The translations under genes were made by a program, and so were the position numbers. This document shows positions 3,901 through 56,427 of a DNA stretch of 64,000 nucleotides, piece after piece (within the stretch, counting starts at the first letter, position 1; each line of letters starts with the position of its first letter). Below the pieces are notes generated by a model. The model was given only the letters and a program-made list of their open reading frames with translations. It did no database searches and had not been told where the DNA came from. Origin of the DNA: Argopecten irradians (lineage: Eukaryota > Mollusca > Bivalvia > Pectinida > Pectinidae). The DNA is taken from the NCBI RefSeq assembly GCF_041381155.1, contig NC_091134.1:1484001-1548000 (forward strand), written 5' to 3'.

Positions 3901-6900
3901 ACATTTTATCCTTTAAATCTATATTTTATCAGTTATCACTAACGCATTTTCAGGTATATATACTATAAGTTTAAGTTATACACAGTCGTAAAATGTGGAA
4001 AGATACATTTTTTTCTCACTTTTTCAGGCAAAAAAGACATTCAATACATACTTGACAGAAAATTCAAAATATAGAGAAGAAATTGAAAGTCTGCGTGTTG
4101 AAAGGACACGGTTTGATGGACTCTATAAAAAGCTTGATAAAGAGCTTACGGTGGCCAGAAGAGAGAAGGGAGAAATTATTGAGAGCTCAACACAGGCTTA
4201 TGACTCTCGGTATGTCATACAGAAATCAAAGAACTTTTTATGTTAAATTTTAAGCAATTTCTGGTTTGATTATTAAAGTCCCTTAATTATGATAAAAGTA
4301 AATTGATTTATTTAAATGTAATATAATCAACGTTTTCTTTTGAACAGAGATGAGGCTCAAGCGAAGATGATACTTCTGAAGGAGAAGGCAGACAAAGACA
4401 TGCAGCAACATAACGCTGAGATGAAGGAACTACTGCGCATCATCGACCACGATCGCTGTCTCCGTGAATTCATGGGAATTAAGGGACAGGAGAGACAGGA
4501 AGATCCACAGTTGGTGGCATGGCGTCAACGCAAAGGTTAGCAACTTACTTTTCAGAAGAATCTAGAATTAGATTAAACTTTTCAATCATCTGCAAATATC
4601 CCTGAAATTTCTTATAATGTACCAAGTTGAATGGTTATGGTATGATTTATCATGATTTTAAATGCTTCAAATTGAATATTCAGTTTTTGATGCCAAGGTA
4701 ACTTCACCCAAAAATTCATCAAAACAATTGGAATTATAAGAATAAAAAATTATCATCAGCTGAAAATAAGTTCATATGTTTCTGTGATTTGCTGTTTTCA
4801 GAGGCCATAGAAGCTGATCGTAAGAAAGAAAGCCAAGAGGATTCAGTGGAAACTTATGAAGCTGCATTTGAAAGAATTAAAGAGATGACAGGTGAAAGTG
4901 ACCTGGACGCTTTAGTGGCTAAATTCATCATGGTGGAGGATAGAAATTTCGCCCTCTTCAATTTCGTCAATGAGCAGAATAATGAAATTGAAACACTTCA
5001 AGAACAAATTGAGGATGTAAGTATTTTGAAACAAATTACCATTTTCCAAAAAGGAATTTTGTCTTTTTTGAAAAGTTTTTTTCTTTTGACGAAAGGATCT
5101 ACAGATAAAGATAATATGTTAAGTTGTCAAATTCTATACAAATGGATATGGTTGCATGCTTACAAGTTTGAATGTACATGTATTGTATATGTAATGTGTT
5201 GTTGATAAAATTGAAATTGAATAAAAAAAATTGTTAAAAAAAATACAAAACATAAAAAAAATACAAAACAAAAAACGATAATACCTATTATTGTTTAATG
5301 AAAAAATCTTTATGACATGTTAATTCATAGAATATGCCAGTTTATGAACATCACGGTTAAAATGTCATTTTTTTTATTGTATAATTGTAGATTAATAACG
5401 AAATAGAAAAATTCAAACTGCAAGGAATTGAGCTTGAGGATCAGAGGAAGAAGATTTTGAAGGAGTTAGAAGAACAGACTAATGCTGCAGCTACAAAAGG
5501 AGACGCCGCTGATGGAAAGAACAAAGGCATCACAAAGATTCTCGATCAACTCCGAGCAGGTCAGATTTACTAACAAATCACAATTCAAGCCTTACATTTC
5601 CCATAAACAAAGTTTCTTGATAACTATCCAAAAATATTGCATGAACTTAGTTAGATAAGAATTCAATATTTGTGATTTGGCTTCAAAAAAAGTACATTAA
5701 CTACACTGAAAATAAAAAAATCTTATTCGTTATGATTTATTTCCCGTTTCATACTTTTCCCCAAATCTTGGTTTTGTTGCATATTTTCCCAAATTCAAAG
5801 CCACAGGCCCCATTCCCAAAGCAGTGAGAACAAGCTCTGAATATATATCTAATTCTCCTTGGCCTATAAACTTTCAGCTCAGGGCTATATCCTCATGAAA
5901 GTTAGATAAACTTGATGTCTTGATGGAAAAAAAATGTAAAGTAAAATTTACAGTTGTGATAAGGTGAAGAGAAGAAAGCAAGGGTAGTTTCAAGAACAAA
6001 AATATGAAGATCTATTCTTTGATTAACAAAAGGATTTTTGATAGTTACGTAATGAACTTTTTCCATAAGGATTTTTGATAGTTACGTAATGAACTTTTTC
6101 CATATTCACCAAATTAAGTCTTGCTTTATAACAAACAGATTATAGACCAGTATTTAATCTGCAAAGTAATAATATGTTAAAAATATTTTTTTTTTAAATT
6201 GTGAAATAAGATTTTGAAGTTTTTCTCATATGATATATGTAATAATGCTTTGTATATACTACCAACAGGTATATCATCCCTGTTTGATAAGATCAATTGT
6301 GACAAGTCGGCGATCGAGGAGATGTTGGGAGCGGCGTCTGGAGTGACGGATAACAACATGATACAATACCTGGGTATTATAGAACAGAGAACCAACGAAC
6401 TTCTGGCTGTCCAGGGCTACATCAACTCTAAGGTACGTAATAATGTCTGGGGGGACTGCCGGAGGGGCTGCAGTGGCTGGCTATAGACTGTTCCTCTGGA
6501 TCATTAGTCGAAAAAATTGTTATATACGGTATTCGACCCAATAAGCGCCCAGGGCGCTTAAGAAATTGATAAAAATGAAAAGGTGCTAATAAGTCAAAGT
6601 TATTGCAAATTTATACCGTTTTATGTAGTTTTGGTCCTTATTTATGCCTGGGCAATTGAAATTGAGGCCTCAAAAAGGGAGAGGGGCGCTTATAGGGACA
6701 TGGGCGCTTATTGGGTCAAATACGGTATATATACCTATAGGTTTGGTGGTTTTTTTCAATTTACTCTGACTTTCCACCTCATTCTAAACTTGGAAATCGT
6801 GATAAAATCCTATCGCAACTTTTAATTGAATATAAAAATAAAGTTAAACCAAATCCACAATAATCAACTTGTCTGAATGATAATGTCATAATTCAAATAT

Positions 6901-21600: not shown

Positions 21601-24151
21601 ACCTATTTTAAACGCAAACTACTCTTTCTCATGAATTTATCTTAAATATAAATGATTGATTTCTTTATCAGATATGGGAAGCACAACGACGTCAACGACT
21701 ACATCAACAACAACAACAACTCCAACAACAACAACTCCAACAACAACTCCAACAACAACTCCAACAACAACCACAACACCAACAACAACCACAACGCCTA
21801 CAACTACAACAACAACACCAACAACAACCACAACTACAACTACAACAACAACACCAACAACAACCACAACACCAACAACTACAACCACAACACCAACAAC
21901 TACAACCACAACACCAACAACTACAACCACAACACCAACAACTACAACCACAACTCCAACAACTACAACCACAACACCAACAACTACAACCACAACACCA
22001 ACAACTACAACCACAACACCAACAACTACAACCACAACTCCAACAACTACAACCACAACTCCAACAACAACAACAACAACTCCAACAACTACAATCACAA
22101 CACCAACAACTACGACCACAACACCAACAACTACAACCACAACAACCACAACACCACCAACAACTACAACCACAACAACCACAACACCACCAACAACTAC
22201 AACCACAACACCAAAAACTACAACCACAACACCAAAACCTTCAACAACATCAACAATAACTACGACCACAACGCCTACAGCTACCACTACAACACCAACT
22301 ACAACTACTTTCGTGTCGGCCGGCGGGGCAGGTAGGTATTCCGTTTAACGCAATATCTTTATTTCGTGTTAAGTTACTTGATAATTGCTTCAAGTGTCTG
22401 TAACATTGCTATTTCCAAGATTCCATCGAGTGTTTGGAAAAGGTATATCAAAAATGGTATCAAACAAAAATAGATACATTATGAGGAATTTCAATTTGTG
22501 AACGAAACGTAACCTGAATGCGGAGTAATATTATGGCTACACATAATTATGAAACATTGTAATTGTATTGTTTCATAAGTTTTATAATGTGTTAAACGTA
22601 TCTATATTTCAGACCAACAAGTAGGACAAGCTGCGCTATCGCAGAGTGAGTTTTAACAATGTTGGAATCGTTTTAAAGAACACAATGTGATTACATTAAG
22701 GGAGGCGACTCTATTGCATTTAGTACCATTTGAAATTAAGCTTTATAATAGTTCTATTTTCTAGATATATATATCTATCTTTACGGAGTTGTAGGAGTGC
22801 AAAACTCACGTTGCAATGAAATAGTGAGTTTGCTTTTCTACATTTACTGGATTTTGTGCGAAATCTAAGAATAGCACTACATGTTCTTGTAGTCCTTGAT
22901 TTGTTATTTTTGTAAAATGGGAGCTACATTTACAGCCGTTTTAAAGTTGATTTGTTTATCAGTATAATACGATGAACATAGACTTGGCAAAAACTGTATT
23001 GATGGCAGACATGCTGCTTCATTCAAACGCCTAGATGTGGTAGTTTATAATTAAGTATTGCCATACACGTAGTCAGTGGTTTTTAATGTACTCAACGAAT
23101 TTGAAAACGGTTTGTCGTTATAAGTTTTCTTATTTTCTTCGTATCTAAGAAGAAGTGTATTTTGCATTTGTTACAGGCGTTATGGCTGGGCTCATTGCGG
23201 CAATAGTTCTAATAGTTGTATTAATAATCATAATAATCATCATCATTGCGAGGAAAAGGTAAGATAAATCACGATATATCGCAATATTCTAAACTCATTT
23301 TATATAAGTCGACAACTGGCATACCAAATCCACTGCCGACCTTTCTTGTCGGAGGGTTCAATTTTTCCTTTAATTATTAGAGGAAACATTACATATGGTA
23401 TACTTATAAGCGATAGTAGTTTACCTTTTATATAAACAACTGCATGTACATTTATAATGTTTGATATTTTTCAACAAATCAATTGACGTGATTGACACTT
23501 GCATTAATACATTTTAATGCGGTATTGAAACACTTTGAATTAAAAACGTAGTGTTTATGAAAAAATGTAATATTATCTTAACAGATACATCATTGTTTTG
23601 ACAGTGGGAATTCTAAGGACAGGTTCGACGGTCAAGTCCACTTTGATAACCGTGTTTATAACCGGCCAAACAATGAATCGGGGCCAAATGAAGCCATTGG
23701 GGTGCAAAATGAATTATTTAACAGACCAAGCCATACGGAACCTAACCCTTATGATTCACTTGGACCGTGTGCATTATCAACATTCAAATCAACGGATGAC
23801 TACCTGCACCCGACAAATAAATTACCACATGGAGCAGAAAAACTGGAGGACAATCCATACGCTTCTTTAAGAGTGGGTGATATGCTTAAATATTCAAACT
23901 CCGTTGAGTTACCGAGTAAGGAAAATACAGACTCGCTCGAGAATGGGTATATGCCCATGCGCTGCAGCTGTAGTGATATCACAGATGATGTATCAAAAGA
24001 CGGAACTTACGTGAAAATGAACTTTGACGTCCAGAAACCCCAAGAAAATTCATTTCCGTCAAATGAGGCCCTAATTAGTTCTGGGAGTGATACGAATCCC
24101 AGTTCATATACTAATAACGGCTACGCTACACATATATCCCTAACGAAATGA
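15632..24151 (+). CDS. Transmembrane C-type lectin receptor with Thr/Pro stalk and tyrosine-motif tail, 7 exons
   Basis: Coding exons are 15632-15680, 18530-18808, 20276-20443, 21672-22331, 22613-22645, 23177-23258 and 23605-24151. The phases join to 1818 nt (605 residues plus TGA). Residues 1-16 (MTMLIFPVIIALSFLY) look like a signal peptide. Residues 27-165 form a C-type lectin domain: NGHCYR, GGHLVVI, VWIGFTDRDAEQKWKWV, EDCAYM and YQYICQY, with eight cysteines including an extra pair around residues 141-148. The Ca/sugar motifs EPN or QPD and WND are not present, so canonical Ca-dependent sugar binding is doubtful. Residues 168-380 are a Thr/Pro mucin-like stalk. Residues 401-421 are a membrane helix with eight Ile in a row, followed by RK. 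The 182-residue tail has NPYDSL (Y473), NPYASL (Y509), GYMPM (Y539) and TYVKM (Y559), which suggests SH2-mediated signalling. A role in immune recognition is inference. Exon 1 is the least certain part: it was chosen because it encodes a signal peptide and has the correct phase. Confidence 0.82.
17101..17164. repeat. 32-bp tandem duplication
   Basis: Two head-to-tail copies of a unit beginning TTTCAGTTTGTTAT differ at one base. They lie in intron 1 of the lectin receptor gene. Confidence 0.8.
18068..18175 (-). mobile_element. 5'-truncated SINE copy, minus strand
   Basis: Read on the minus strand this holds CACGTGGATTTTCTCCGGGC, then ACTCCGATTTCCTCCCAC, then CTCGCGCTTAC and CCTGGCCAT. These match, in order, the central and 3' parts of the tRNA-derived SINE at 60530-60775. 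The tRNA-like head is missing. It lies in intron 1 of the lectin receptor gene. Confidence 0.65.
19400..19975. mobile_element. Two abutting copies of the AAGATGCTCCACC MITE family
   Basis: A truncated copy (about 19400-19613) starts at AAAGATGCTCCACTGCC and is followed directly by a full-length copy (19614-19975), inverted relative to the element at 1204-1567, with shared internal blocks such as TTGGTGTATTATCGTGTGTA and GGTGCATGCGCAATCAGTAC. Both lie in intron 2 of the lectin receptor gene. The right end closes with the reverse complement of the terminal motif and TTAA. Confidence 0.7.
20444..21306 (+). repeat. Minisatellite built from the exon 3 end and its splice donor
   Basis: Intron 3 of the lectin receptor gene opens with about 20 head-to-tail subunits of about 41-42 bp. 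Each resembles the last codons of exon 3 plus the donor: ATACCAGTATATCTGTCAGT then ACGGTGAGTAC or ACGGTAAGAC. Two alternating subunit types form a higher-order unit of about 82 bp. Nearly every subunit keeps a consensus-like 5' splice site (GGTGAGTAC or GGTAAGA). The array has clearly arisen by repeated duplication of the exon-intron junction. Confidence 0.9.
21690..22310 (+). repeat. Coding minisatellite of the lectin receptor stalk
   Basis: Most of exon 4 is made of ACA/ACC/ACT and CCA codons in a degenerate 21-bp unit (CCAACAACTACAACCACAAC plus A), read as PTTTTTT. Because the unit is a multiple of three and lacks T-A-rich stops, other frames are open too: an Asn/His/Tyr frame on the plus strand and a Val/Gly frame on the minus strand. 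The splice phases support only the Thr/Pro frame. Confidence 0.9.
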
Positions 24152-34075: not shown

Positions 34076-34993
34076 TCAACTTTTGACGTTTTCGTTCGAA
34101 TGTTTTCCTGGTAATTCTGAGGACGAGTCGCTATTTACATCAATAGGTGTAACGCTTGCAGAGTTTTTCTTCCTCTCCTCCTCACCCATGGACGACCCCC
34201 AGACTTTAGAGTAGGCATAGAAAAGGAGAAAGTTATTCACAAATATTGGAATGATCACTGCCAGAAGGCATACCCCCGTTACAGCGCAGACAGCCCCAAC
34301 TAGCTTGGACAGACCGATGGTAGGATACACATCGCCATATCCTACCGTTGTCATGGTAACTATGGCCCACCAGAAGGCATCCGGGATACTCTCAAATACG
34401 GTGTCTCCCGAAAAGAAAGCAAATGCGCCGAACATCAGCATGGCAACGACGAGGAACATTGACATGAGCATAACCTCTATTGCACTGGCTTTGACGGAGT
34501 ACAGGAGCACGCGGAATCCAATGTAGTTCTTGACGAGTCTGAACAGACGAAACACCCGGACGATCTGTAGGCAGTGGACGATATCAAAGACAGACGCTTG
34601 GTATTTATCCTTGGGGTTGATGGCATTGACTACGTATTTAGAATACATTACGATAAGGGCAAAGATGTCGACCAGGTTGAGAAATGAAATAAAGAATTTT
34701 TTCTTGAAGGGACAAAATATTATCCTCATAATAAGTTCGATCGTGAAGAAAGTGACTGTCACATATTCTAAATACACAAGGAAATCAAGATGTGTCGCTG
34801 TTTTCGGAAGCGGGGGAATTGTTGTGTTGGAAATGTCGCTACCGTCGAAATACGCCTGGTACATGTAGAATTCGTCCCCGAAGAACTCTTTCCATTCATC
34901 CAGGTTCAGGGATCGTTTGAACGTTTTATGTGTTCCCGAAACCAGAGCTGATATGGAGACAATCACGAACACGGCGCTGACATAGAAGTAAAT
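34076..34993 (-). CDS. Voltage-gated K+ channel, common S1-S6 and C-terminal exon
   Basis: On the minus strand an acceptor CTTTTCAG at 34994 and up opens a 305-codon exon in phase 0 that ends in TGA. It encodes S1 (IYFYVSAVFVIVSISALVSG), an extracellular loop with the glycosylation site NTT, S2, S3 (VDIFALIVMYSKYVV), S4 (IVRVFRLFRLVK), S5, the pore filter TMTTVGYGD and S6. The S6 gate is atypical: the usual PVP is IIP (VIIPIFVNNF), so only the second proline remains. S4 has four basic residues at the usual three-residue spacing and Q in place of an outer arginine. The short C-terminal tail is Ser-rich. The protein would be a plasma-membrane K+ channel subunit of the Shaw/Kv3-like side of the family, judged from the zinc-type T1 domains upstream. 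T1 comes from the exon at 39886-40371 or the one at 44437-44919; both end in phase 0 and fit this acceptor. Confidence 0.93.
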   Translation of the reverse strand: MYFYVSAVFVIVSISALVSGTHKTFKRSLNLDEWKEFFGDEFYMYQAYFDGSDISNTTIPPLPKTATHLDFLVYLEYVTVTFFTIELIMRIIFCPFKKKFFISFLNLVDIFALIVMYSKYVVNAINPKDKYQASVFDIVHCLQIVRVFRLFRLVKNYIGFRVLLYSVKASAIEVMLMSMFLVVAMLMFGAFAFFSGDTVFESIPDAFWWAIVTMTTVGYGDVYPTIGLSKLVGAVCAVTGVCLLAVIIPIFVNNFLLFYAYSKVWGSSMGEEERKKNSASVTPIDVNSDSSSELPGKHSNENVKS

Positions 34994-36125
34994 CTGAAAA
35001 GATAGAAAAATATTTTCATTACATGTAGCTTACAATGTGAAACAGCATAGACTGTTACAGATGATTGTAGACTGTCTAAGAAAAAGAACTACAGAAGAAA
35101 TACTGAAGTGTCCTATACGATGCCAAACTCACTCGGCGTTATGATTTAGACCATGTAATTGTATCATTACATGGTAAATATGCAACCTATGCGTGAACAT
35201 TGTAGAATTCCTTCATTGAATTTCAATGATTTCTAATATCACTGTCGGAATATTCTCCTTAGATGAAAATTAATGTTGTTTGATTTGTCATATGAACGTA
35301 ACGCAAAAAAAAATGTGTAAGTAATATTTTAATCTTTATCGTCATGATCTGAAGATAAGGTTGAACGTAATTTTATTTTATTTCATTTTTACAGCTTTTA
35401 TCATTCAATGAGGACCTTGTGTGAATTAATTTGGCTTTATATTACCTAACGACCTATAAATAGCTGTAATCAAACACGCAAGTTATAGATAATTGATTTA
35501 GTGGTTTATAAAGATTTAAAGTTTTGTTTCCCGGGTAATGGGTGAGATTTAGCCTTCGTCTTAATTACTTTCTCACTTGCTATCAGGAAATAAAAGAAAA
35601 ATAAATGGTGCAAAGTGTTTAAGACGTAGAGTGAGACGGCACTACAGACACATCTTAAGCGCAATGTCAAGATACTATGAACATATTTGATTTCAAAAGG
35701 TTTTTGAACAACACAAGTGAAAAGCATCAAGGTGTATATTTTACAAAATCTGAAACTAATTTCCTGAATTCTCATGATATATCTGAAAATAAAATTGCTA
35801 AGCGAATGGTGTCTTTTTATATACGTGCCTTTCAGTAAGACTGTACTATAACCACATATAACCTTGGTTTTTTTCAACAGTGTCAACAGTAATATTGACA
35901 TTTTTACGAACAACTCAAATAAAAACCCATTAAACTGTAGATTTCAGAAAATCAATCTTTACTCCAAGTGTACAGTCTTCAAATCGCAGTTGACTTCTTG
36001 TAACTTTTATAGTTATGAAATAACTTAGCCTATTATTGTTGTTTTGTGGGAATTATATGACTTGCGACGAAAATAAGAGTGTGTCCCGAATAATAATAAT
36101 AATATAAGGATATAGATACTGAGAA

Positions 36126-36463
36126 CAATACAACAGCCAAGGAGTATTACCTAGACCTCTCCCAAGAGTCTAGTCACCATTAAGCTTGTAAATAGCTTTG
36201 ATGTGAATAATGTGTTAACATCATGTCCGGATAATATCTTCTGACAGGAAATATATTCCATACACCGTACATCAAACAGGCTGTTTCGGTTTAATTAATA
36301 TCTTAGGTTAATGAGTAGATGGTTCGAAAGGAATATATGTCTTAGCTTGGAGTCATTTACGACTTTGCGTTATATTTTTATATATATATTTCTGCAATAC
36401 CGTAGATCAAACTGGTTAGTTTATATTACGATACAAACTACACAATCCTAATATCAGCACACC
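36126..36463. repeat. Direct repeat copy 1 of about 330 bp
   Basis: This segment starts CAATACAACAGCCAAG and matches 38342-38668 nearly base for base in long blocks (for example CCTAGACCTCTCCCAAGAGT and GAAATATATTCCATACACCG). A third, shorter and worn piece follows at about 38669-38755. Confidence 0.85.
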
Positions 36464-36864
36464 ATTAAACCTGATTTGGCCAGTAACAACCATGTATGTT
36501 CCCGAAATCATTGAAGGTGATTATATCATCACAACAACTTTATACGGTACATTTACGCATGAAAATTAACAATCGTGGAGACAAATGCTATTTCAAACCA
36601 AATGCAGAATAACTAATCTAATAAACATCGAAAGATTATCATGTTGAGTTTTATTCATGCAAAATCATCAAGAATAACCCACCATGTTGTTTCTCTCCAT
36701 CGATAGCTGTAACGATATAGAGGTTTGTTGTCCAGTGCTCTGTGTCTGACAGATGTTCATACCCGAGACGATTTATCGTAAGGGTATGTTCAACACCTAA
36801 ACTAAAACTCAACTAATCTGACCACTTTAAATGTTTTGAAAGAAGGAGTTAAACAAAGAGAAAA

Positions 36865-37228
36865 CACTACCTTTCCGAAACGGCTTTTAATTTTTAAAAT
36901 AGGAATGTAAAACGAGATCAATAATTTTGTAGAGTCGCAGAAGTTATTAACCATACGTTTACTAGCACACTTATCATCACCTTCAGAACTGTTTAGTTAG
37001 AATAAATAAAATGTTAATTTTCATAAACGCGGGTCGTTTTATGTTTCCCGCCGTCGTCCTAAATGCCGCGCGGTAGTTGACTATCACTGCGCCACACGGC
37101 AAAACAGCGAAATGAATCTCCACTGTTATCGTACATTAGACAGGAAATCTTGCATATGTTTGGTGTTGTAACCTCATCTTAAGCCATCGATATATATTTT
37201 CTTTTGGTATTAATGTTTTTAAGAAACC
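36865..37228. mobile_element. MITE-like element beginning CACTACCTTTCCGAAACGG
   Basis: About 364 bp without coding potential, matching 63656-64000 along its length (GCATATGTTTGGTGTTGTAA, CCGCGCGGTAGTTGACTAT). It is bordered by direct repeats of about 38 bp (36825-36863 and 37229-37266, core GAAAGAAGGAGTTAAACAAA) that differ at about one base, which is far longer than a normal target-site duplication. Confidence 0.7.
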
Positions 37229-38341
37229 TTTAAATTTTTTGAAAGAAGGAGTTAAACAAAGAGAAACACAGAAAATGTTTTCATCAATTTGAAAATTGTA
37301 AAAACTCAGTAGCAAAAATTCGGGTTCCATACTCCATCAGTCCAATTTCATACCTAGTATCCTGAAATTGTTTATTTGTTTAGGTATAACGGATAATCGT
37401 CTTCCAGTATCATTTAGGGCCACACAGTCGAGGCTGGACTGTCTATGTGTAATTGTTAACCCATTCCACAAAATACTGGTGGAATAATTCTGATAGCGAT
37501 TTGATAGTCCATCGAATGTTACATTTAGTTGATAAACAATAGCAAGCCGAATATACATGCCCATGTGTTACCGCTTGCTGTTTTTGTTTGTTTGTTTCTG
37601 CAAAGTATACAGGACTATTCAGATGATCAATATTACGCACTAAACAAACGGATTTCTCAAGCAAGTACCATCTCCTTGATGAATTATGACTTGTTGTAAT
37701 TTACCACTCGTATCAGATGGTAATCTTATGTATAGGAATTTCTGAATGTTGATTATTGAAATTACATGCTTGAAAAGAACAAATTATCCGTACATTTACT
37801 ATTTATTACAAGTTAAATATTCAGCATGTACTCCTTAACAGTTTTAATACATTAAGGTCTGTAAGTCAATAATGCTTGACGGACACCAGTCGTCTATTAC
37901 ATGGTCCAGTGCGGAAATAGACTATTGAAAGAAATACGCCGAATATTGTTATTATTTCTTAATCATTTCCACACAAACTACGCCAATGGTTTTGTTTGCG
38001 AGTATGCGTAGTTAATATGTGACATCTCTTTAAAGTAAAGGTACCATATATCCTGTTATAGGTTGAGCTATGTGTTGTGGTGTGTGATGTTTGCATGTTT
38101 TGCAACATTCGTGTTGAGTTTCCTTGTAACAGTGGACGTTTTGCCCTTTTGATATCAGATTATGTGTTTTGAACGTAATGCCAAAGATACGATAATTAAT
38201 ATTAGCTTTGTATTTGAAAAAGCCGGTGGTGCTATCAATCACGTGTAAAATGACGCTTCCAGAATCCGCTAATTAGACCTCAGGGAACATGTTTATTGGT
38301 TTAGCTTTATTATCACATCCTTACATACCGTAAACAGAGCT

Positions 38342-38668
38342 CAATACAACAGCCAAGGAATATTACCTAGACCTCTCCCAAGAGTCTAGTCAGCATCAAA
38401 CTCGTGAATAGCTTTTGTTCGAATAATGTTTTAATATCATGTCCAGACATTATCTTCTGGCAGGAAATATATTCCATACACCGTACATCAAACAGGCTGT
38501 TTCGGTTTAATTAATATCTTTTGAGTTAATGAGTAGATGGTTCGAAAGGAATATATTTCTTAGCTTGGAGTCATATTACGATGGTTTATATATGTATTTC
38601 TGCAATACCGTAGATCAAAGTGGTCGGTTTAAATTACGGTACAAACTGCACAATCTTAATATCAGCAC
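38342..38668. repeat. Direct repeat copy 2 of about 330 bp
   Basis: Second copy of the segment at 36126-36463, 2.2 kb away in the same orientation and in the same intron. It is followed by a partial third copy containing AAACAGGCTGTTTC and TGAGTAGATG. Confidence 0.85.
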
Positions 38669-38792
38669 CGTACATTAAACAGGCTGTTTCTTTTTTATAT
38701 CTCAATCTTATGAGTAGATGCTTCGAAATAATGAGTATATTCCCTAGCTTGGAGTTGAAAAAATGAAGAAAGCGTTAATTAAAGCAAAACAA

Positions 38793-38965
38793 AATTGTCA
38801 AATTTTCAAGGCGATCTGCCCCTTTATCAAGACATACAAAACGGGACAAAGTAGACAAATATTTGTCTACTTTGTCCCGCATTACTGTTTGTATCCTATT
38901 ATGTAATCGTATTCGTTTTGTATGTCTTGATAAAGGAGCAGATCGCCTCGAAAATTTGACAATTT
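38793..38965. repeat. Hairpin-forming palindrome with GGCGATCTGCCCCTTTATCA arms
   Basis: The left arm (AATTGTCAAATTTTC, then GGCGATCTGCCCCTTTATCA, then a CGGGACAAAGTAGACAAATA centre) is mirrored by the right arm, with an extra spacer of about 40 bp in the right half. A lone half site with the same words (ATTGTCAAATTTTCGAGGCG then GTCTGCCCCTTT) occurs at about 46331-46365. The words resemble dispersed terminal repeats of retroelements in other invertebrates, but no family is claimed. Confidence 0.7.
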
Positions 38966-39885
38966 TTTTTGTCCACACGATTGGAATTACGTCCTTGTCC
39001 CATATTTACCATTTGAAGTCATTCGTATCCAACAGACTTACGTTTGATTGGATCCCGTGTCATCTGGAAAATCCTGTTGATATTACTTCTTTGACCCCTA
39101 CATGTATATAGTAATATTGGCCAATGATGGTGGTATACTAGTAAATTTACTGAAACAGTAGGACCTTATAATTGTTAACTGATTAAACAACCATAACCGT
39201 CTCCTAAGCTATACATCCATAAATTTACTAACACAGTCATATCTCCTTGGCAACAGAAAGCGAATCTTGTCAATAATCCACCCCGTATCTGTAGGTATAC
39301 GTGCGAAAAAGGCAGTCCTTATTTATTCTAATGAAAGCAATTTAAAACTCAAAGACTTTCATTATCTAGATAAACTGGATTTCAATATAAATCTACAGAT
39401 GCCCTTACTAATTAGTCATTAACTTTATGTTGATACAATTGCATTTAATTTTGTACATAGATTTGAAATTCTAGTAACAAATTTTGACTTTGTGGAGACT
39501 GTGAACAATTATTGTTGTAAACGCTTGTTACAAATAAATTACAACCCCCCTTTTTCCCGATCCCTCTACACTCCCTTTCGTTTTTCTCTCACTTTCTTGA
39601 AAACATAGTACTGTATTATGTATTTAATTTGTTTCGCATCTTGTTGTCATTACTCGATGTTTGTTTATTACAGACATTTATATTTATCTATGTCATTAAG
39701 GAAAGGAATAAAGAGTTTATATAACTCATGTCCAATTCCGTTGAGTTTAAACAATAAATATATTTCATAGAATCAGGTTTAAAGAAGACAGTGACTTGTA
39801 TGCGTTACTACAGGCAGTTAATGAAACACCACACAATACTACTTGTGATGCGATTCTATGAGATTGCATTAGAAACTGAAAATAC

Positions 39886-40371
39886 CTTGGCCAACATGTT
39901 TGAAGACGGTTCTTCCAAAATACCCCAGACTCTTGCCTCCAGAGCTTTCCATCCTGTCCCTCGCTGCCGTTTCTCGATTTCTTTCCGTTCATTTTTCCTT
40001 GCGTTTTGGTCTGTGTCCAGTATTTTTAGAACATTTTGATCATCGAAAAAACCCACATACCTACTGTAACAACACTTTTCCATCTTTTCTGATTTAATAC
40101 CCCAAAATTCTATTTCATCATTGAATTCCGATGGACAGATAGATGCAGGCATATGCAATCCTCTGTTTTGAAAATATCCCAAAATAACTGGAAAACAGCT
40201 TGGGTGCCTTTCAAAGAACAGTTCACCATGTTTCGTTGTTTTGTACAGATTGGCGACTTCCTTCAGGCCGTGTTTTTCCTGTAAGTTACTTTCGATATTG
40301 ATCCACGTGTCTCGCGAAACTTCAAATTTTGTGCCACTGATATTCACAGTGATAAATTCATCATTCTCCAT
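39886..40371 (-). CDS. Kv channel T1 (BTB) exon A, proximal
   Basis: From the ATG at 40371 to a donor AAG|GTATTT (last base 39886) this exon codes 162 residues in phase 0. It is a full Kv tetramerisation domain: ITVNISGTKFEV, FFERHPSCFPVILGYFQNRG, then the zinc motif H-x5-C-x20-CC (HMPASIC through EKCCYS) that marks non-Shaker Kv T1 domains. It ends EEPSSNMLAK, the usual linker before S1. In the channel the T1 domain sets which subunits assemble. The start was placed by alignment with exon B; the frame stays open upstream to an ATG at 40509. Reading past the donor gives a stop after nine residues, so intron retention would yield a T1-only peptide. Confidence 0.88.
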
Positions 40372-41644
40372 AATTATGCTTCTTGACTTGAGTATCCAAG
40401 TTTGAATGTTCTGTCCAAAGGTATGTATAAACAGAAATTGTGAATCTATTTCAAAGTCTTCAATGTAAATGTCACAATGCTGATTTGCTAGATTGTTATT
40501 AAAAATCAATATAATCTCGGTTCAAGTGTGATCAATTGTGTAACTTAACAAAATAGAATAATAAATTCTATATCACCTCCCGTGGCCGAAAAAGGTAACA
40601 ATAATTTATGTATTAAGTTTGTTCGTCTACAAAGTGCCACGAAGCCCAAGTGGTTATCTACAGCGAGGTAAAACGGACGCCTGAAGCAGACTCCGCACTA
40701 ATATACCAGAGATAAATAAAACATGTACGATATAGAAGAACAGTTTTACTCACTATAGTATTATTGGCCTATTGCCGTTACGCTTCAGTGATTTATCTGT
40801 TAATTTTACGGTAGACATCCATGTCACAATCGTTGACTAAAGAGGAACTTGATATCAGTTTTCTCTGAATATACATTTGAGTATACACTGTTTGAAAGTC
40901 ATAAAAATCGTTTTAATAAGAACATTATCACAATTCTGTGATAAAGTTTGTAAGCGTCGTTGTGTAACTTGATATACCAACAAATGCGAATGCCAATAGA
41001 ATGATTCCATGCGTGTGCAAGCGTCTTTTAGGAAGCGTAAAATAAGCATTAATCGTAATTCAATTGGATAACTATCGCACTGTACAACTATTAACTATCA
41101 CATAATCGAACACAAGATGAAGGGTTTTATCATTATCCGTTTTAATCAAACCGAATGTCAGGGGACTCATGAAGGATTTCATTGCTTAGCTATATAACGT
41201 TCAGTCTCGTGTCACTAGCTGTGTACTTCCGTTTTCATGTATGTCTGGTTTAAAATACGCTAGCATTTGTTAAGTATCATCGTCATATCTGTATCAATAT
41301 CCTTTATTTGTTTTAGGGATTATAAGTCTATTACTGTACTATAAGTGACATTTTGGAATATACCGAGAAACGAGACACTCCATTAAGGAAGGATGTAGGT
41401 GACAAGTTTACACATCACTCCTTAGTATGCACAAATTTACTCAGACGATATAACCCTGAACAAACGAGCCACTGGAATCGTTGCGCAAATGGAACAGCAA
41501 TTATTAATTTACAATATCATGTAACATGTAATGCTTCAGAAAAAAGATCCGATTGCATATCCATCTCGTTTATGACATGTGATACATGCATAATAGATGG
41601 AATAGTTTGTGATAATGAAAAACGTAATTGTAGGTTGTACGACC

Positions 41645-42309
41645 TTAAAGTTGTATGGTCCATAACTTTCGATCTACTTGTCATGGTGAAAACTGTTTAA
41701 GTGCTTTACTCACTTTTTTTTCGTCTGTCCGAGGTTTAAACTGTCTAATTTTACCACTTTTTATGAACTTGTAGCAATGGAAGTATTTTTGATTATAAAA
41801 GTAAAAAATCTTTTTCACGTGTACACGTAAAAATTAGCTCGAAAGACGTCGAATCATTACGAACTCCTCCGAACATCGTCGCGACCATCTCGAAGTAACA
41901 CGGGTGTTGTAAAACAAAGAGAAATTGTCAACAATTTTTCATAAACAAAACACTGCAAAGAAAATAATGCTCGCACATTATAATATTTGATACACACAAT
42001 ATTTTACGGAAAACGTGAACAAACACATGTGCACGTACGCTAGATACCTAGGTCACCACGTCCAGGTCGTGACGAACGTCAGTCACGAGATACGATTCGG
42101 AATCCGACAAACCCGAAGTCACTGAACATGGCGGTGATTGAAGGCGCCTTGTTCAAAACCAGGAATATAGGATCCCTAGATTTCGGCTCTCTTATAGGCC
42201 GACATATGCTTTTGGGGAGATAAATCATCAAGTTTCATGTCAATGTTCAAATATCAAATGTTTAAGTGACATATCGTTACAGTGATATTAGCATGCAATA
42301 TAACTTTAA
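41645..42309. mobile_element. Second copy of the TTAA-flanked 769-bp element (665 bp)
   Basis: Same ends (TTAAAGTTGTAT) and TTAA borders as 25834-26602, with internal deletions that shorten it by about 100 bp. It lies between the two T1 exons. Confidence 0.8.
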
Positions 42310-42519
42310 TTAAAAACAGTTCTTCCTGATAACATATATCTGTGATACATTTCATTGTGACAGAGGAATAATTTTATAGCACTACCTTACTGAAATGTAT
42401 TGATGAAGATGCACAGCAGCATACTGCTATCCGATTACAAATCATACAAGTAGTCTTGTTGGTTTGTTGTCTGATAGGGCAATGGACGACCTAAAACATG
42501 TAAGCGTACGAGTATTGGA

Positions 42520-42690
42520 GACTACTGTAGCTAGGACTACTAAGCATGTCAGAAACTACCATTTGTATAGACTATGGTGAGTATCGTCCAGGGGACAGAC
42601 CTCAGAGCTTTGTCCACAAGAGTAAGGCGACAATAAGATTGACATTAGGAAGAAAGTTAGGAAAAATTGATATTATCTCAAATTGAGTCG
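42520..42690 (-). mobile_element. Partial copy of the dispersed SINE-like family
   Basis: It contains CATAGTCTAT (minus strand) and the following block of the family seen in full at 51700-52147 and 55006-55450, but only the 5' part is present. Confidence 0.55.
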
Positions 42691-44436
42691 GATTTTACGA
42701 TCATTGAATACGAGACAGCAGGTACATGCAAAACATACGGAGGCGAACACCATCGTTTTATATGTCTTACTTACGTATACAGACATGGGTAATTAAAGGT
42801 TGACACTCTTCGAATCGTTTTATCACAACAGTCAGCAGAATGACATGTAAGCAAAATTCGGCCAGGGAACTGGACACAGAAAACAGAAATTGTAAGAGAA
42901 ATTGATTTCACATTTTTTATTGAATGACACGTATCGCTTTAATTTTATTTTAATGTGATTTCAATAAAGACTACGGGAACATTCTTTGTGATTTTACATA
43001 AATAATTATGTCTTAATACCAATTGAACAATTAAACGAATTTATTCAGAATTACTGATAATACGAATGTAATAATATCAGATAAACTGGTATATCATTAA
43101 ATGACAGCCACATAAAAAAACATTGTTAGATTGTACGCAATGCTATGCTATCAATAATGCCCCGTGAGTTGGTTTTCAATGGTTATCAATTATATAAATG
43201 GGTTATATATTAAGATAATCACTATTTATCATCAGATAGAGCAGCTTGTATTGATACATCATTGCATTATTTATGAATCTGTCATCGTGGTCAATAATGT
43301 GTAAGCAAACGTATAACAGGCCTAGGAATGCTTCGTATTTCTAAACCTCTCGAGTGATCATGATAAAGTTAGAAAGTGTTTGAAGACAGCGAAGTCCTTA
43401 TCAAATAAAAATCATTCAAAACTGCAAAATGTGTCGTCAAATGAAAATGATTTGCGGACTTTTCGATTTAGTGTTAGAATTAATCCAGGGTACACGAGTA
43501 CAGAAATGTAAAATGCAGTAAGGCAGCCAAATCAATATTAACGAAGTGCATAATGTATAACCATATAATTTTCAATAATGGTTCGTGTTAAAGGTAACCT
43601 TTCCAGGTTTTATTGAGTTTGACTAGCCTGTAAGAATGGTGCAGTAAAAGACGTATAAACAACTAAAAGCTCATCCTTTGTTTAAATGTAAAAACGTAAC
43701 AGGAAACACCGGAGGCCTCTTACATTGTCAAGCCGTGCAAGCCAGAAAATGTGCTTATAACTCCGCATTTATTAATGCTTACCTTTCATTGTTAAGCCAA
43801 ACGTAAGGGTGTATCCGCATAACAGGTTCATGATGAAAATGTATAATTGCCGAACGATCTATCATGCGATCGATGTAGGTTTTGTAAAATTATTATGCCA
43901 ATATTGTTCTTTGGTTTTTTTTGTAGGCTTAACGATTATTTTGTACTTAAGAATGAAGTTATGATTGATTTTCGGAAAAAGTGAGCAACAGAAAGAGTCT
44001 TTCTAACGCTTGTTATGTCAATGTACGGAAAACCACACCCATTTTACTCAAGGACATGATATATTATGAAAGCAAAATAAAATTATATAAATATCTGAAA
44101 ATGAGCAACAGATGAACACTTCGAACCATATTTACTTTTTTGCTGAGAACTCATAACCAAACACTCTTTGAATAGGGTTATATTGATGGGATGTCAAGAC
44201 CTTAACGTGGTCCCAAAAACCAAACAAGCAATAGCGAAATCTTTATAGACATTAACAGTTACGGAGAGTTGTTAAATATTTGAATTAACTATTTTAAACC
44301 TCCGTTTTAACGAGATGTTGGCGATCACAACACGAGAAAAGAAAAAAAGCAATGTAGCCGACATTTTCTTTTAGTATTATTTTAGAATGATAATTTGTTT
44401 TATTGCTACTATGTTATCCTGAAAAACGTACAGTAC

Positions 44437-44919
44437 CTTGGCCAACTTTCCAGATGAAGGCTCCTCAAAGACACTCCAAACAGTTGCCTCCACCCCGCTC
44501 CAATCTTGTTGTCGACGGCATCTGTCGAGATAGAGTCTCTCATTAGTCCTGTTAGATTCGTCTGTATCCAGCATATTCAACATCTTCTGGTCATCAAAGA
44601 ACCCAATATATCTACTGTAACAACAGTTCGACATCTCCTTAGCATTTATTCCCCAAAACTTCAGCTCTTCTTTAAACTCCATAGGGCATATGGACCCTGG
44701 CATATGAAGACCTCTGTTCTGGAAATAGCCCAACACTTCTGAGAAACATTGTGGGTGACGTTCAAAGAAATAATCGTCAGAATTCTTTGTGAACAATTGG
44801 GACATTTTATCTCCCCCATGAGTCTCATACAGAGATGTTTTAATACTTTGCCATGTCCTTTCAGATATATCAAACTTTGTGCCATTGATATTGACAGTAA
44901 CGTTCTCGCTAGAATCCAT
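44437..44919 (-). CDS. Kv channel T1 (BTB) exon B, distal
   Basis: From the ATG at 44919 to a donor AAG|GTACTG (last base 44437) this exon codes 161 residues in phase 0. It is a complete T1 domain: VTVNINGTKFDI, FFERHPQCFSEVLGYFQNRG, zinc motif H-x5-C-x20-CC (HMPGSIC through SNCCYS), YIGFFDDQKMLNMLDTDESN, and the linker EEPSSGKLAK. It shares well over half its residues with exon A and the same splice phase, so the two are tandem duplicates. With the exon at 34076-34993 it would give a 466-residue channel (467 with exon A). Both exons look intact. Whether the two are alternative first exons of one gene or exon B is an orphan duplicate cannot be told from sequence alone. Confidence 0.88.
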
Positions 44920-46645
44920 CTTAATAGTTTCCTCTTATAAAAAGAAACTCTTGGTGAGCGATACAGTGTTAAATGCTTCAGGAATCCTCCGAACTTGTGC
45001 TTGAACTAGTTTCCGACAAACTCATTATATAGGTAGACAGTTTGATAATATAATATACGTAATTATATTGTCCTAAAGTTTACTCAAACGCCCAATGTGT
45101 TTGGCCATCAAAGAAACTCTTTTTGCTGATCACTCCTCTAGATATTTAACTGGTTTCCATCGCTTGCCATTGATAGGAAGACATACTCATTGGATTGATA
45201 CCGTCGTTAGATCAATCTTCTATCAAAGGATTCATTTCATCGTCCCAGTATCACAATATGGAATATGAAAATTTCTTTTTACATCCCTGCGTTCTTAATG
45301 AACCAAAGGTTAAATGAATGATGCAATCTTGACATAAACATTAGGAGGAAGCAGTACCCTACGTTCTAGGAATCTTGGTAAAGATCATCTTTGATTGGCA
45401 AAACCACGCCACTTTGTTCGAGTACATAGTCTAGCATACCAGTACAAACGATCACTGAACGATAATCAATATTTAGTCAGTCCGGCGACGTCCAATTGAT
45501 TATTTCTGTTGTCCACCCAAACTGTATCTTGCTGGTTAATATCTCATGATATGTAGTTTTATTATATTCCTAATAGTGATGAATATTACAGCGACCCATT
45601 ACCCCCGGGAAGTGTTTATTTAACCATTGTCTCATGCTTGTATGCATATATTGTAGCATGTCCTACATATATTGTCTGGTCAAAAGGTCAATCATGACGC
45701 ATCTGTTAATGGCAGATCGAGGTAAAAGGTGCGTATTGTCAATATGAAAACAACAAAGCCATGATGAACAGAATATACAATACTACGATCAAGTAGAATT
45801 TAACAAAATTTACAACATTCTACTGTTTAGCGCCACGATCGGTTTTAAGCCATATTTAGATATGATACCATGTCCTCACCATTTTTTTTTTTTAGATTAA
45901 CGTCCTATAACCGGTCTGTACTATGTACTGACGGCTTTCCATGTGTGCAATACACTATCGGCAGCAGGTACAAGTCTAACGCTCTTCCTGGAAGGCCAGG
46001 TCCTCTGAAAGAGAACACGCTAAAGAAATACAATACAATTGACATACTTATACATTCAGTAAGATTGTCTCTGTATCTTCTGGACTCCACCTATACGATG
46101 GATGGCATGAAATATTTACCCATGACTGATTAACAAAACGTCTCAATGGGCGTTTTCTCTCGTCAGGTTTCACGCATATTGAAATTTCCTGTTTAACTTT
46201 CCAATACAATTTGTCATTAGGTTCGATGTATGTGTTTGGTTAATTGAGTAAATAGTTGTCTCCATCAACAGATATGTTTAGGCTTTAGAACAATATTAAT
46301 TGTTGATCACACCTGTGCAGTGTTGACAAAATATTGTCAAATTTTCGAGGCGGTCTGCCCCTTTGTCTTTCACCCATATTATGATAATAGTTATTAAATA
46401 CATGCATACCGATATTTATCCTTCTTCAAGTAATATTAAGTCTTGAAACATTAGCCGAGGTATTACAATAAATGTTTAATCTGTATTCCTTTTTATGACG
46501 GCCGTACGATCCGATGTCTAATTAACATTTAACAGACCTGGATACCCCAAACGACAATAAGCCAATAACGAACAAACAAATAAATAAATAACATGTTCAC
46601 TCTCTAAGGAATCTCATGACATATAGGTCAAATATCACAATTTAG
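44920..46645. other. Intergenic region upstream of the channel locus
   Basis: No supported gene. It should contain the promoter of the transcript that starts with T1 exon B. A T-run followed by AGATTAACGTCCTATAACC near 45886-45912 looks like the reversed tail of the SINE family. A half copy of the palindrome from 38793 sits at about 46331-46365. Confidence 0.45.
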
Positions 46646-55450: not shown

Positions 55451-55596
55451 TTACGTTCATGCAATAGCGGCAGCAAGCACAATTCATACGGCCTACCTTC
55501 AGGGCCAATGGAGATGTGTAAAAAAGGGCAGATAACATGGGTATAACTATCAAGAAAATAAGAGTTTATCCACATAGTAGAAGTTGTTTTCTTTCA

Positions 55597-56085
55597 AAAT
55601 AAGATTTTGTCCACAGAGTAAGAGTTGTTGTTCTATCAAAATAAGATTTTGTCCACAGAGTAAGAGTTGTTGTTCTATCAAAATAAGATTTTGTCCACGG
55701 AGTAAGAGCTGTTGTTATATCAAAATAAGATTTTGTCCAAAGAGTAAGAGTTGTTGTTCTATCAAAATAAGATTTTGTCCAAAGAGTATGAGTTGTTGTT
55801 CTATCAAAATAAGATTTTGTCCAAAGATTATGAGTTGTTGTTCTATCAAAATAAGATTTTGTCCAAAGAGTAAGTGTTGTTGTTCTATCAAAATAAGATT
55901 TTGTCCAAAGAGTATGAGTTGTTGTTCTATCAAAATAAGATTTTGTCCACAGAGTAAGAGTTGTTGTTCTATCAAAATAAGATTTTGTCCAAAGAGTATG
56001 AGTTGTTGTTCTATCAAAATAAGATTTTGTCCAAAGAGTATGAGTTGTTGTTCTATCAAAATAAGATTTTGTCCACAAAGTAAGA
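55597..56085. repeat. 42-bp minisatellite, 12 units
   Basis: Units begin AAAATAAGATTTTGTCCA and continue with AGAGTAAGAGTTGTTGTTCT and ATC. The unit is 14 codons long and lacks stops in several frames, so long open frames appear on both strands (for example repeated IKIRFCP on plus and WTKSYFDRTTT on minus). These are a result of the periodicity, not evidence of a gene. Confidence 0.92.
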
Positions 56086-56427
56086 GTTATTTTTGGCCTA
56101 ATGAAACAAATAGCACGTCGAAACAGTTCATCCTTATAGTTGAGACACTCTGTAAACAGTTTTTATAATATAGCGACAGACTTGATGAAAGCTCGGAATC
56201 ACAAGTATCAGAAGGTGATCAGTACAGCTTTCAAAACTAGGTCATAAAGAAAGGAAGATTTTCAAAAATATTGACAAGGTATGATGGTAAAACAGATACT
56301 ATTGTGTTTTAAATTAATGCGGCTGAATTTGAAGTATAATGGTGTATAAATTGTTGAATGTTTGTGATCGAGATAGACCTTTATTATCAATAATTTAATG
56401 ATAGTATTTCAATTATTTTATTCATAA

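Follow-up and report, generated by a model that had tools for sequence, protein, structure and literature searches.

The T1 domain governs which voltage-gated potassium (Kv) channel subunits may assemble, and the diversity of Kv channels is usually ascribed to the number of their genes together with the heteromers that they form. We analyzed a 64-kb window of the Argopecten irradians genome (C1:1484001-1548000; "the window" denotes this whole stretch), in which an apparently divergent Kv (Shaker-related) alpha-subunit gene carries, in order along the minus strand, two exons that each encode a T1 domain (exon B, then exon A) and one exon that encodes segments S1-S6 (the body). If such a locus does swap its T1 domain while keeping its pore, it is a natural T1-swap experiment.

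The gene resembles the Kv1-Kv4 (Shaker, Shab, Shaw, and Shal) alpha-subunits in its six-segment body and TVGYG selectivity filter. Both of its T1 exons contain the zinc motif HX5CX20CC, which PMC9159280 places in Kv2-4. Among solved chains of the Protein Data Bank, the T1 is nearest to Shaw (3kvt is the best relative of exon B, E 1.6e-17) and the body to Kv2.1 (8sd3, E 6.8e-41). The gene differs from Kv1-Kv4 in having two T1 exons per body, in an S6 that reads IIP where theirs reads PXP, and in retaining four of the seven positively charged residues that Kv2.1 has in the aligned S4 stretch.

Altered PXP motifs and many diverged paralogues within one genome are also features of the silent or regulatory Kv subunits (vertebrate KvS and cnidarian NvShakR). 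According to PMC3440756 and PMC4623978, several Kv channels require the PXP prolines in order to gate normally, and the second is absent from the vertebrate silent subunits. In contrast, the window gene has lost the first proline and kept the second; since this loss differs from the KvS signature, we do not file the body under KvS. The subunit may nonetheless work like KvS despite its second proline.

Drosophila Shaker is likewise a Kv gene whose functional diversity comes from alternative exons; to our knowledge, its T1 core is not swapped by alternative splicing. Unlike the arrangement described here, its splicing is reported for inactivation kinetics in PMC3519636, whose authors ascribe no important role to the alternative splicing of cnidarian and mammalian Shakers. 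Variable N-termini on a common core are found in the genes for KChIP and DPP6/DPP10, which use alternative promoters and, for DPP6/DPP10, alternative first exons (PMC3973911); these are auxiliary subunits, however, and their variable part is not a T1 domain. Among the matches listed, the open-access literature holds no precedent for T1 exons that are alternative, duplicated, or mutually exclusive, and subscription journals lie mostly outside it, so absence from print is not implied. Nor did searches of the open-access literature for bivalve or molluscan Kv expansions yield anything on point.

Exon anatomy, splice signals, and channel body

The anatomy of the locus is genuine and ancient, and it is unique within this genome. 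Its parts are as follows.

44437..44919, minus strand: T1 exon B, candidate first coding exon, 161 aa, ATG to LAK, phase-0 donor; BTB_2 68.2 bits; HX5CX20CC
44435..44436, minus strand: GT donor of exon B, AAG/GTACTG; 8.2 bits on the donor matrix (26 paralogous T1 donors)
40372..44434, minus strand: interval between B and A, 4.1 kb; no body remnant found by tblastn or with the body profile (best profile match, E 3.6)
39886..40371, minus strand: T1 exon A, candidate first coding exon, 162 aa, ATG to LAK, phase-0 donor; BTB_2 67.5 bits; HX5CX20CC
39884..39885, minus strand: GT donor of exon A, AAG/GTATTT; 9.3 bits on the same matrix
34994..34995, minus strand: AG acceptor of the body exon, TTTTCAG/ATT, phase 0; 14.4 bits, matched by 0.07% of the AGs on the strand
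34079..34993, minus strand, with stop TGA at 34076..34078: S1-S6 body exon, 305 aa; Ion_trans 113.3 bits, Ion_trans_2 46.6 bits

Both T1 exons cover the Pfam BTB_2 profile from end to end (cut-off 21.4 bits), as expected of the N-terminal domain of a Kv alpha-subunit, and the zinc motif is exact in each (from residue 73 in A and 72 in B). Neither contains a stop or a frameshift. They are identical at 87 of 162 aligned columns and differ at 75, and the window contains no N; an assembly artefact or an allele is thereby ruled out. The likeness is uneven: columns 51-120, which include the zinc site, are identical at 48 of 70, compared with 20 of 50 in columns 1-50 and 19 of 42 in columns 121-162. 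With A at -3 and G at +4, each ATG stands in a favourable start context. Because an in-frame TAA lies 18 nt upstream of its ATG, exon B very probably initiates translation itself; in exon A, the reading frame stays open through the 150 nt that precede the ATG.

Leave-one-out scores of the 26 paralogous donors range from 4.4 to 13.2 bits. Among the 3771 GTs on the minus strand, 0.5% score as high as the donor of A and 0.9% as high as that of B, figures to be read with the exon-side AAG in mind, which is also kept for protein reasons. The family acceptor matrix was built from 15 sites at 14 loci, L020 contributing a second match that is spurious, and one site itself scores <2 bits; on this matrix, no AG scoring >2 bits was found within 160 nt upstream of either T1 ATG. 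The T1/S1 junction falls at the same codon, phase, and position in A, in B, and in most paralogues. The locus has the layout of a gene with alternative first coding exons: two ATG-bearing exons, donors of the same phase, and a common acceptor downstream. The only TATA-like word found within 400 nt, TATATAA at -112 of exon B, is no evidence of a promoter, because 0.84 such words are expected per 400 nt; promoter and poly(A) words in the window occur at chance frequency only. When the sequences around A and B were compared for direct repeats, the exon ends alone matched.

Further bodies and T1 domains were sought on both strands of the window, with tblastn queries taken from the exons of the window itself (E up to 10) and from the body frames of 29 relatives and the T1 frames of 28 (E up to 1), and with profiles built from 30 bodies and 29 T1s. 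All searches together yielded one body and two T1s, and within the 64 kb neither tblastn nor the profiles gave a second body, a third T1, or a convincing remnant. The best stray T1 match (29623-29459, to the T1 of L042; E 0.039, 31% over 62 columns) and the best stray match of the body profile (36028-36150, E 0.12) were counted as chance. As a control, the same tools recovered a fragmented body behind a T1 at C9:22.009 Mb (profile E 7.3e-8, tblastn E 1.3e-9), which the first searches had missed and which the relatives' frames and profiles found. Rfam gave no match in the window. The first-pass annotation of this DNA had described two full zinc-type T1 exons, each ending in LAK at a phase-0 donor, and a single downstream S1-S6 exon with a phase-0 acceptor; in coordinates, strand, and open frames, our results agree with it.

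The same annotation suggested that the two products could share "the same pore and gate". A caveat is due here: the filter, MTTVGYGD, is canonical, but the gate is atypical, since S6 lacks the first PXP proline and S4 has lost some of its outer charges. The loss in S6 is common in the family, since among 30 aligned bodies 17 lack the first proline, six lack the second, and seven retain PXP; in the body's own clade all nine lack the first. Judged by these residues, the homology of the body to Kv stands and the standard Kv1-4 gate does not. Because the first proline and some outer S4 charges are missing, the body would belong to a subunit with unusual gating or with a modulatory role in heteromers.

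Origin of the T1 pair and its rarity in the genome

The T1 tree (n = 29) comprises A, B, and 27 of 28 fetched relatives, leaving aside L055, whose frame holds both T1 and body; loci were available for 30 of 39 T1 matches. The body tree (n = 30) was built from those 30 of the 44 body matches for which loci were available. In the T1 tree, A and B group as sisters (support 100/97), and L041 at C1:4.176 Mb joins them next (94/85). In the body tree, the window body groups with L010 (C1:4.162 Mb; 86/71); L010 and L041 together make up the matching gene at C1:4.16-4.18 Mb. The T1 was therefore duplicated on this gene's own lineage. Whole-gene duplication is common elsewhere in the genome.

The two T1 exons are synonymously near saturation. 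By LWL85, the nonsynonymous distance (dN) is 0.30 and the synonymous distance (dS) 1.79, a ratio of about 0.17; by NG86, dN is 0.36 and dS undefined. Third positions differ in 60% of codons, as do 15 of the 25 fourfold sites that encode the same residue. Since this divergence has accumulated without a stop or frameshift, both exons have probably been under selection for most of a long time. In neutral simulations of B, 3 of 2000 copies were free of stops at 0.75 changes per site and 1 of 2000 at 1.0, with 24% and 17% identity left, respectively; these distances are about half of that between A and B, as if one copy had drifted freely. A relative-rate test with L041 (154 columns) is even, with 11 changes specific to A and 13 specific to B.

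We counted T1-body units across the 846-Mb genome by chaining neighbours within 40 kb, using all 121 BTB_2 matches, 4 further T1 matches, and 43 of 44 body matches. There are 40 body-bearing units: 35 are T1-body, two T1-body-body, one T1-T1-body-body, and one a body alone, and the window locus is the single T1-T1-body unit. With 35 of the 40 units following the pattern of a single T1 for each body, the doubling of T1 is a genuine exception. In the T1-T1-body-body unit, at C13:34.70 Mb, the frames are broken and the T1s partial. BTB_2 units without a body number 74 lone and five paired, most of which we take to be KCTD-like.

Several Kv loci lie on C9. A run at C9:22.17-22.40 Mb (L048, L049, L051, L054, and L062; L033, L035, L037, and L038) consists of T1+body genes in which every T1 has a body to itself; the T1s L048 and L049, in the genes at C9:22.175 and 22.190 Mb, are near-identical. 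The four fetched bodies of this run have an S6 reading PVA, the second PXP proline being lost as in the vertebrate silent subunits. At C9:22.00-22.01 Mb, on the minus strand, an intact T1 frame is followed by a fragmented body (L065/L070), probably a Kv gene in decay.

The mirror image of the window locus is found on C4. There, on the plus strand, one T1 (37848038) is followed by two bodies (37859725 and 37865868), corresponding to L053 1450-2001, L020 from 1125, and L019 from 1086 (C4:37.848-37.867 Mb). From their phase-0 acceptors, the two bodies have open frames of 367 and 401 aa, and they are sisters in the body tree (100/99). In this interval, covered gap-free by L053, L071, L020, L069, and L019, no second T1 was found (T1 profile E 1.4e-51, next match 2.6). 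The second body of the C4 unit is intact, and that of the other T1-body-body unit, at C1:31.85 Mb, is a fragment with two TGA codons. Judging from these frames, the sharing of heads and bodies may run both ways in this clade.

Proposed alternative first exons and competing explanations

We suggest that, long ago, a divergent Kv alpha-subunit gene underwent a tandem duplication of its T1 first exon that did not include the body. B and A would then be alternative first coding exons that each supply an ATG and are each spliced at the same phase-0 T1/S1 junction to one body exon, and the gene would encode two full-length subunits that share the membrane part and differ in their T1 heads. Alternative first exons sharing one body are, on the sequence, the best reading of the locus and a fairly probable one. 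The first-pass annotation, which called this the simplest reading, is thereby supported in part: the intact homologous T1s, their common codon, phase, and junction, and the single body available for joining all speak for it. What we infer is the splice of B to 34993, with the choice made by promoter or by splicing, and heads that differ in their choice of partners. Some features weigh against it. G at +5 is missing from the donors of both B (GTACTG) and A; an AATAAA follows the donor of B, starting 32 nt beyond it; 14% of neutral copies stay open at 0.1 changes per site, which is compatible with a recent loss of use; and the branch of B in the T1 tree is twice that of A (0.67 vs. 0.34), which may mean weaker constraint.

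The longer branch would suit an exon B that is the T1 of a former neighbour gene, still open after the deletion of its body and no longer, or recently not, in use. Such remains are at home in this genome, where whole-gene tandem duplication is common (as in the near-identical T1+body pair on C9), an intact T1 precedes the fragmented body at C9:22.009 Mb, and partial T1s without a body occur (C9:22219330). However, tblastn and the profiles found no body remnant in the 4.1 kb between B and A; B, though highly diverged, still has its frame, the zinc motif, the context of its ATG, and a donor like those of the family; and the relative-rate test is even, so that we regard this origin of B as unlikely. 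The AATAAA past the donor bears on another possibility, that transcripts end in the intron after B and yield a short T1-only protein, which could act as an assembly inhibitor. The frame of B does continue beyond the donor for 19 codons before it reaches a TAA, but the AATAAA precedes that stop codon, the donor is family-like, and about 4 A[AT]TAAA words per 1500 nt are expected in the window, both introns having 6 per 1500 nt; we give a T1-only product a small chance. The open 150 nt before the ATG of A, with in-frame AGs such as that at 40411, would allow B to be spliced into A, making one subunit with two tandem T1 domains. Yet every AG within 160 nt upstream of this ATG scores 2 bits or less, against 14.4 for the body acceptor (on the 15-site matrix with its one spurious entry), and the genome contains no other T1-T1-body unit; a tandem-T1 subunit is very improbable.

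Partner choice, possible exchange of heads and bodies, and neighbouring features

If A and B are alternative first exons, the first-pass claim that they confer different assembly partners is a guess, and one weakened by the similarity of their zinc-binding stretches (48/70). In Kv2.1, according to PMC9159280, the zinc sits at one end of the interface, where neighbours share it, and charged contacts are made at the opposite end. From the pattern of identity, A and B may co-assemble with each other, and any difference between them in partners would come from the N-terminal half.

More tentatively, the phase-0 T1/S1 junction common to most Kv genes here could be a splice hub at which subunit identity and assembly address are mixed, an idea that we consider possible but doubtful. 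If it were true, the window locus would join two T1 heads to one modulatory membrane part, giving two assembly addresses, and the locus at C4:37.85 Mb would join one T1 head to two bodies, giving two membrane parts with one address.

The intron between A and the body contains direct repeats (36118-36460 and 38334-38668) about 2.2 kb apart and 90-92% identical. An inverted repeat at 38787-38970 has 57-nt arms that are 95% complementary, with a related 40-nt arm 7 kb away at 46328-46367, and is perhaps a small mobile element. Elsewhere in the window, an exon at 4702-5205 on the plus strand matches the central coiled coil of ODAD1 (102 bits), and long open frames of short repeats occur on both strands at 21637-22348 and 55566-56168.

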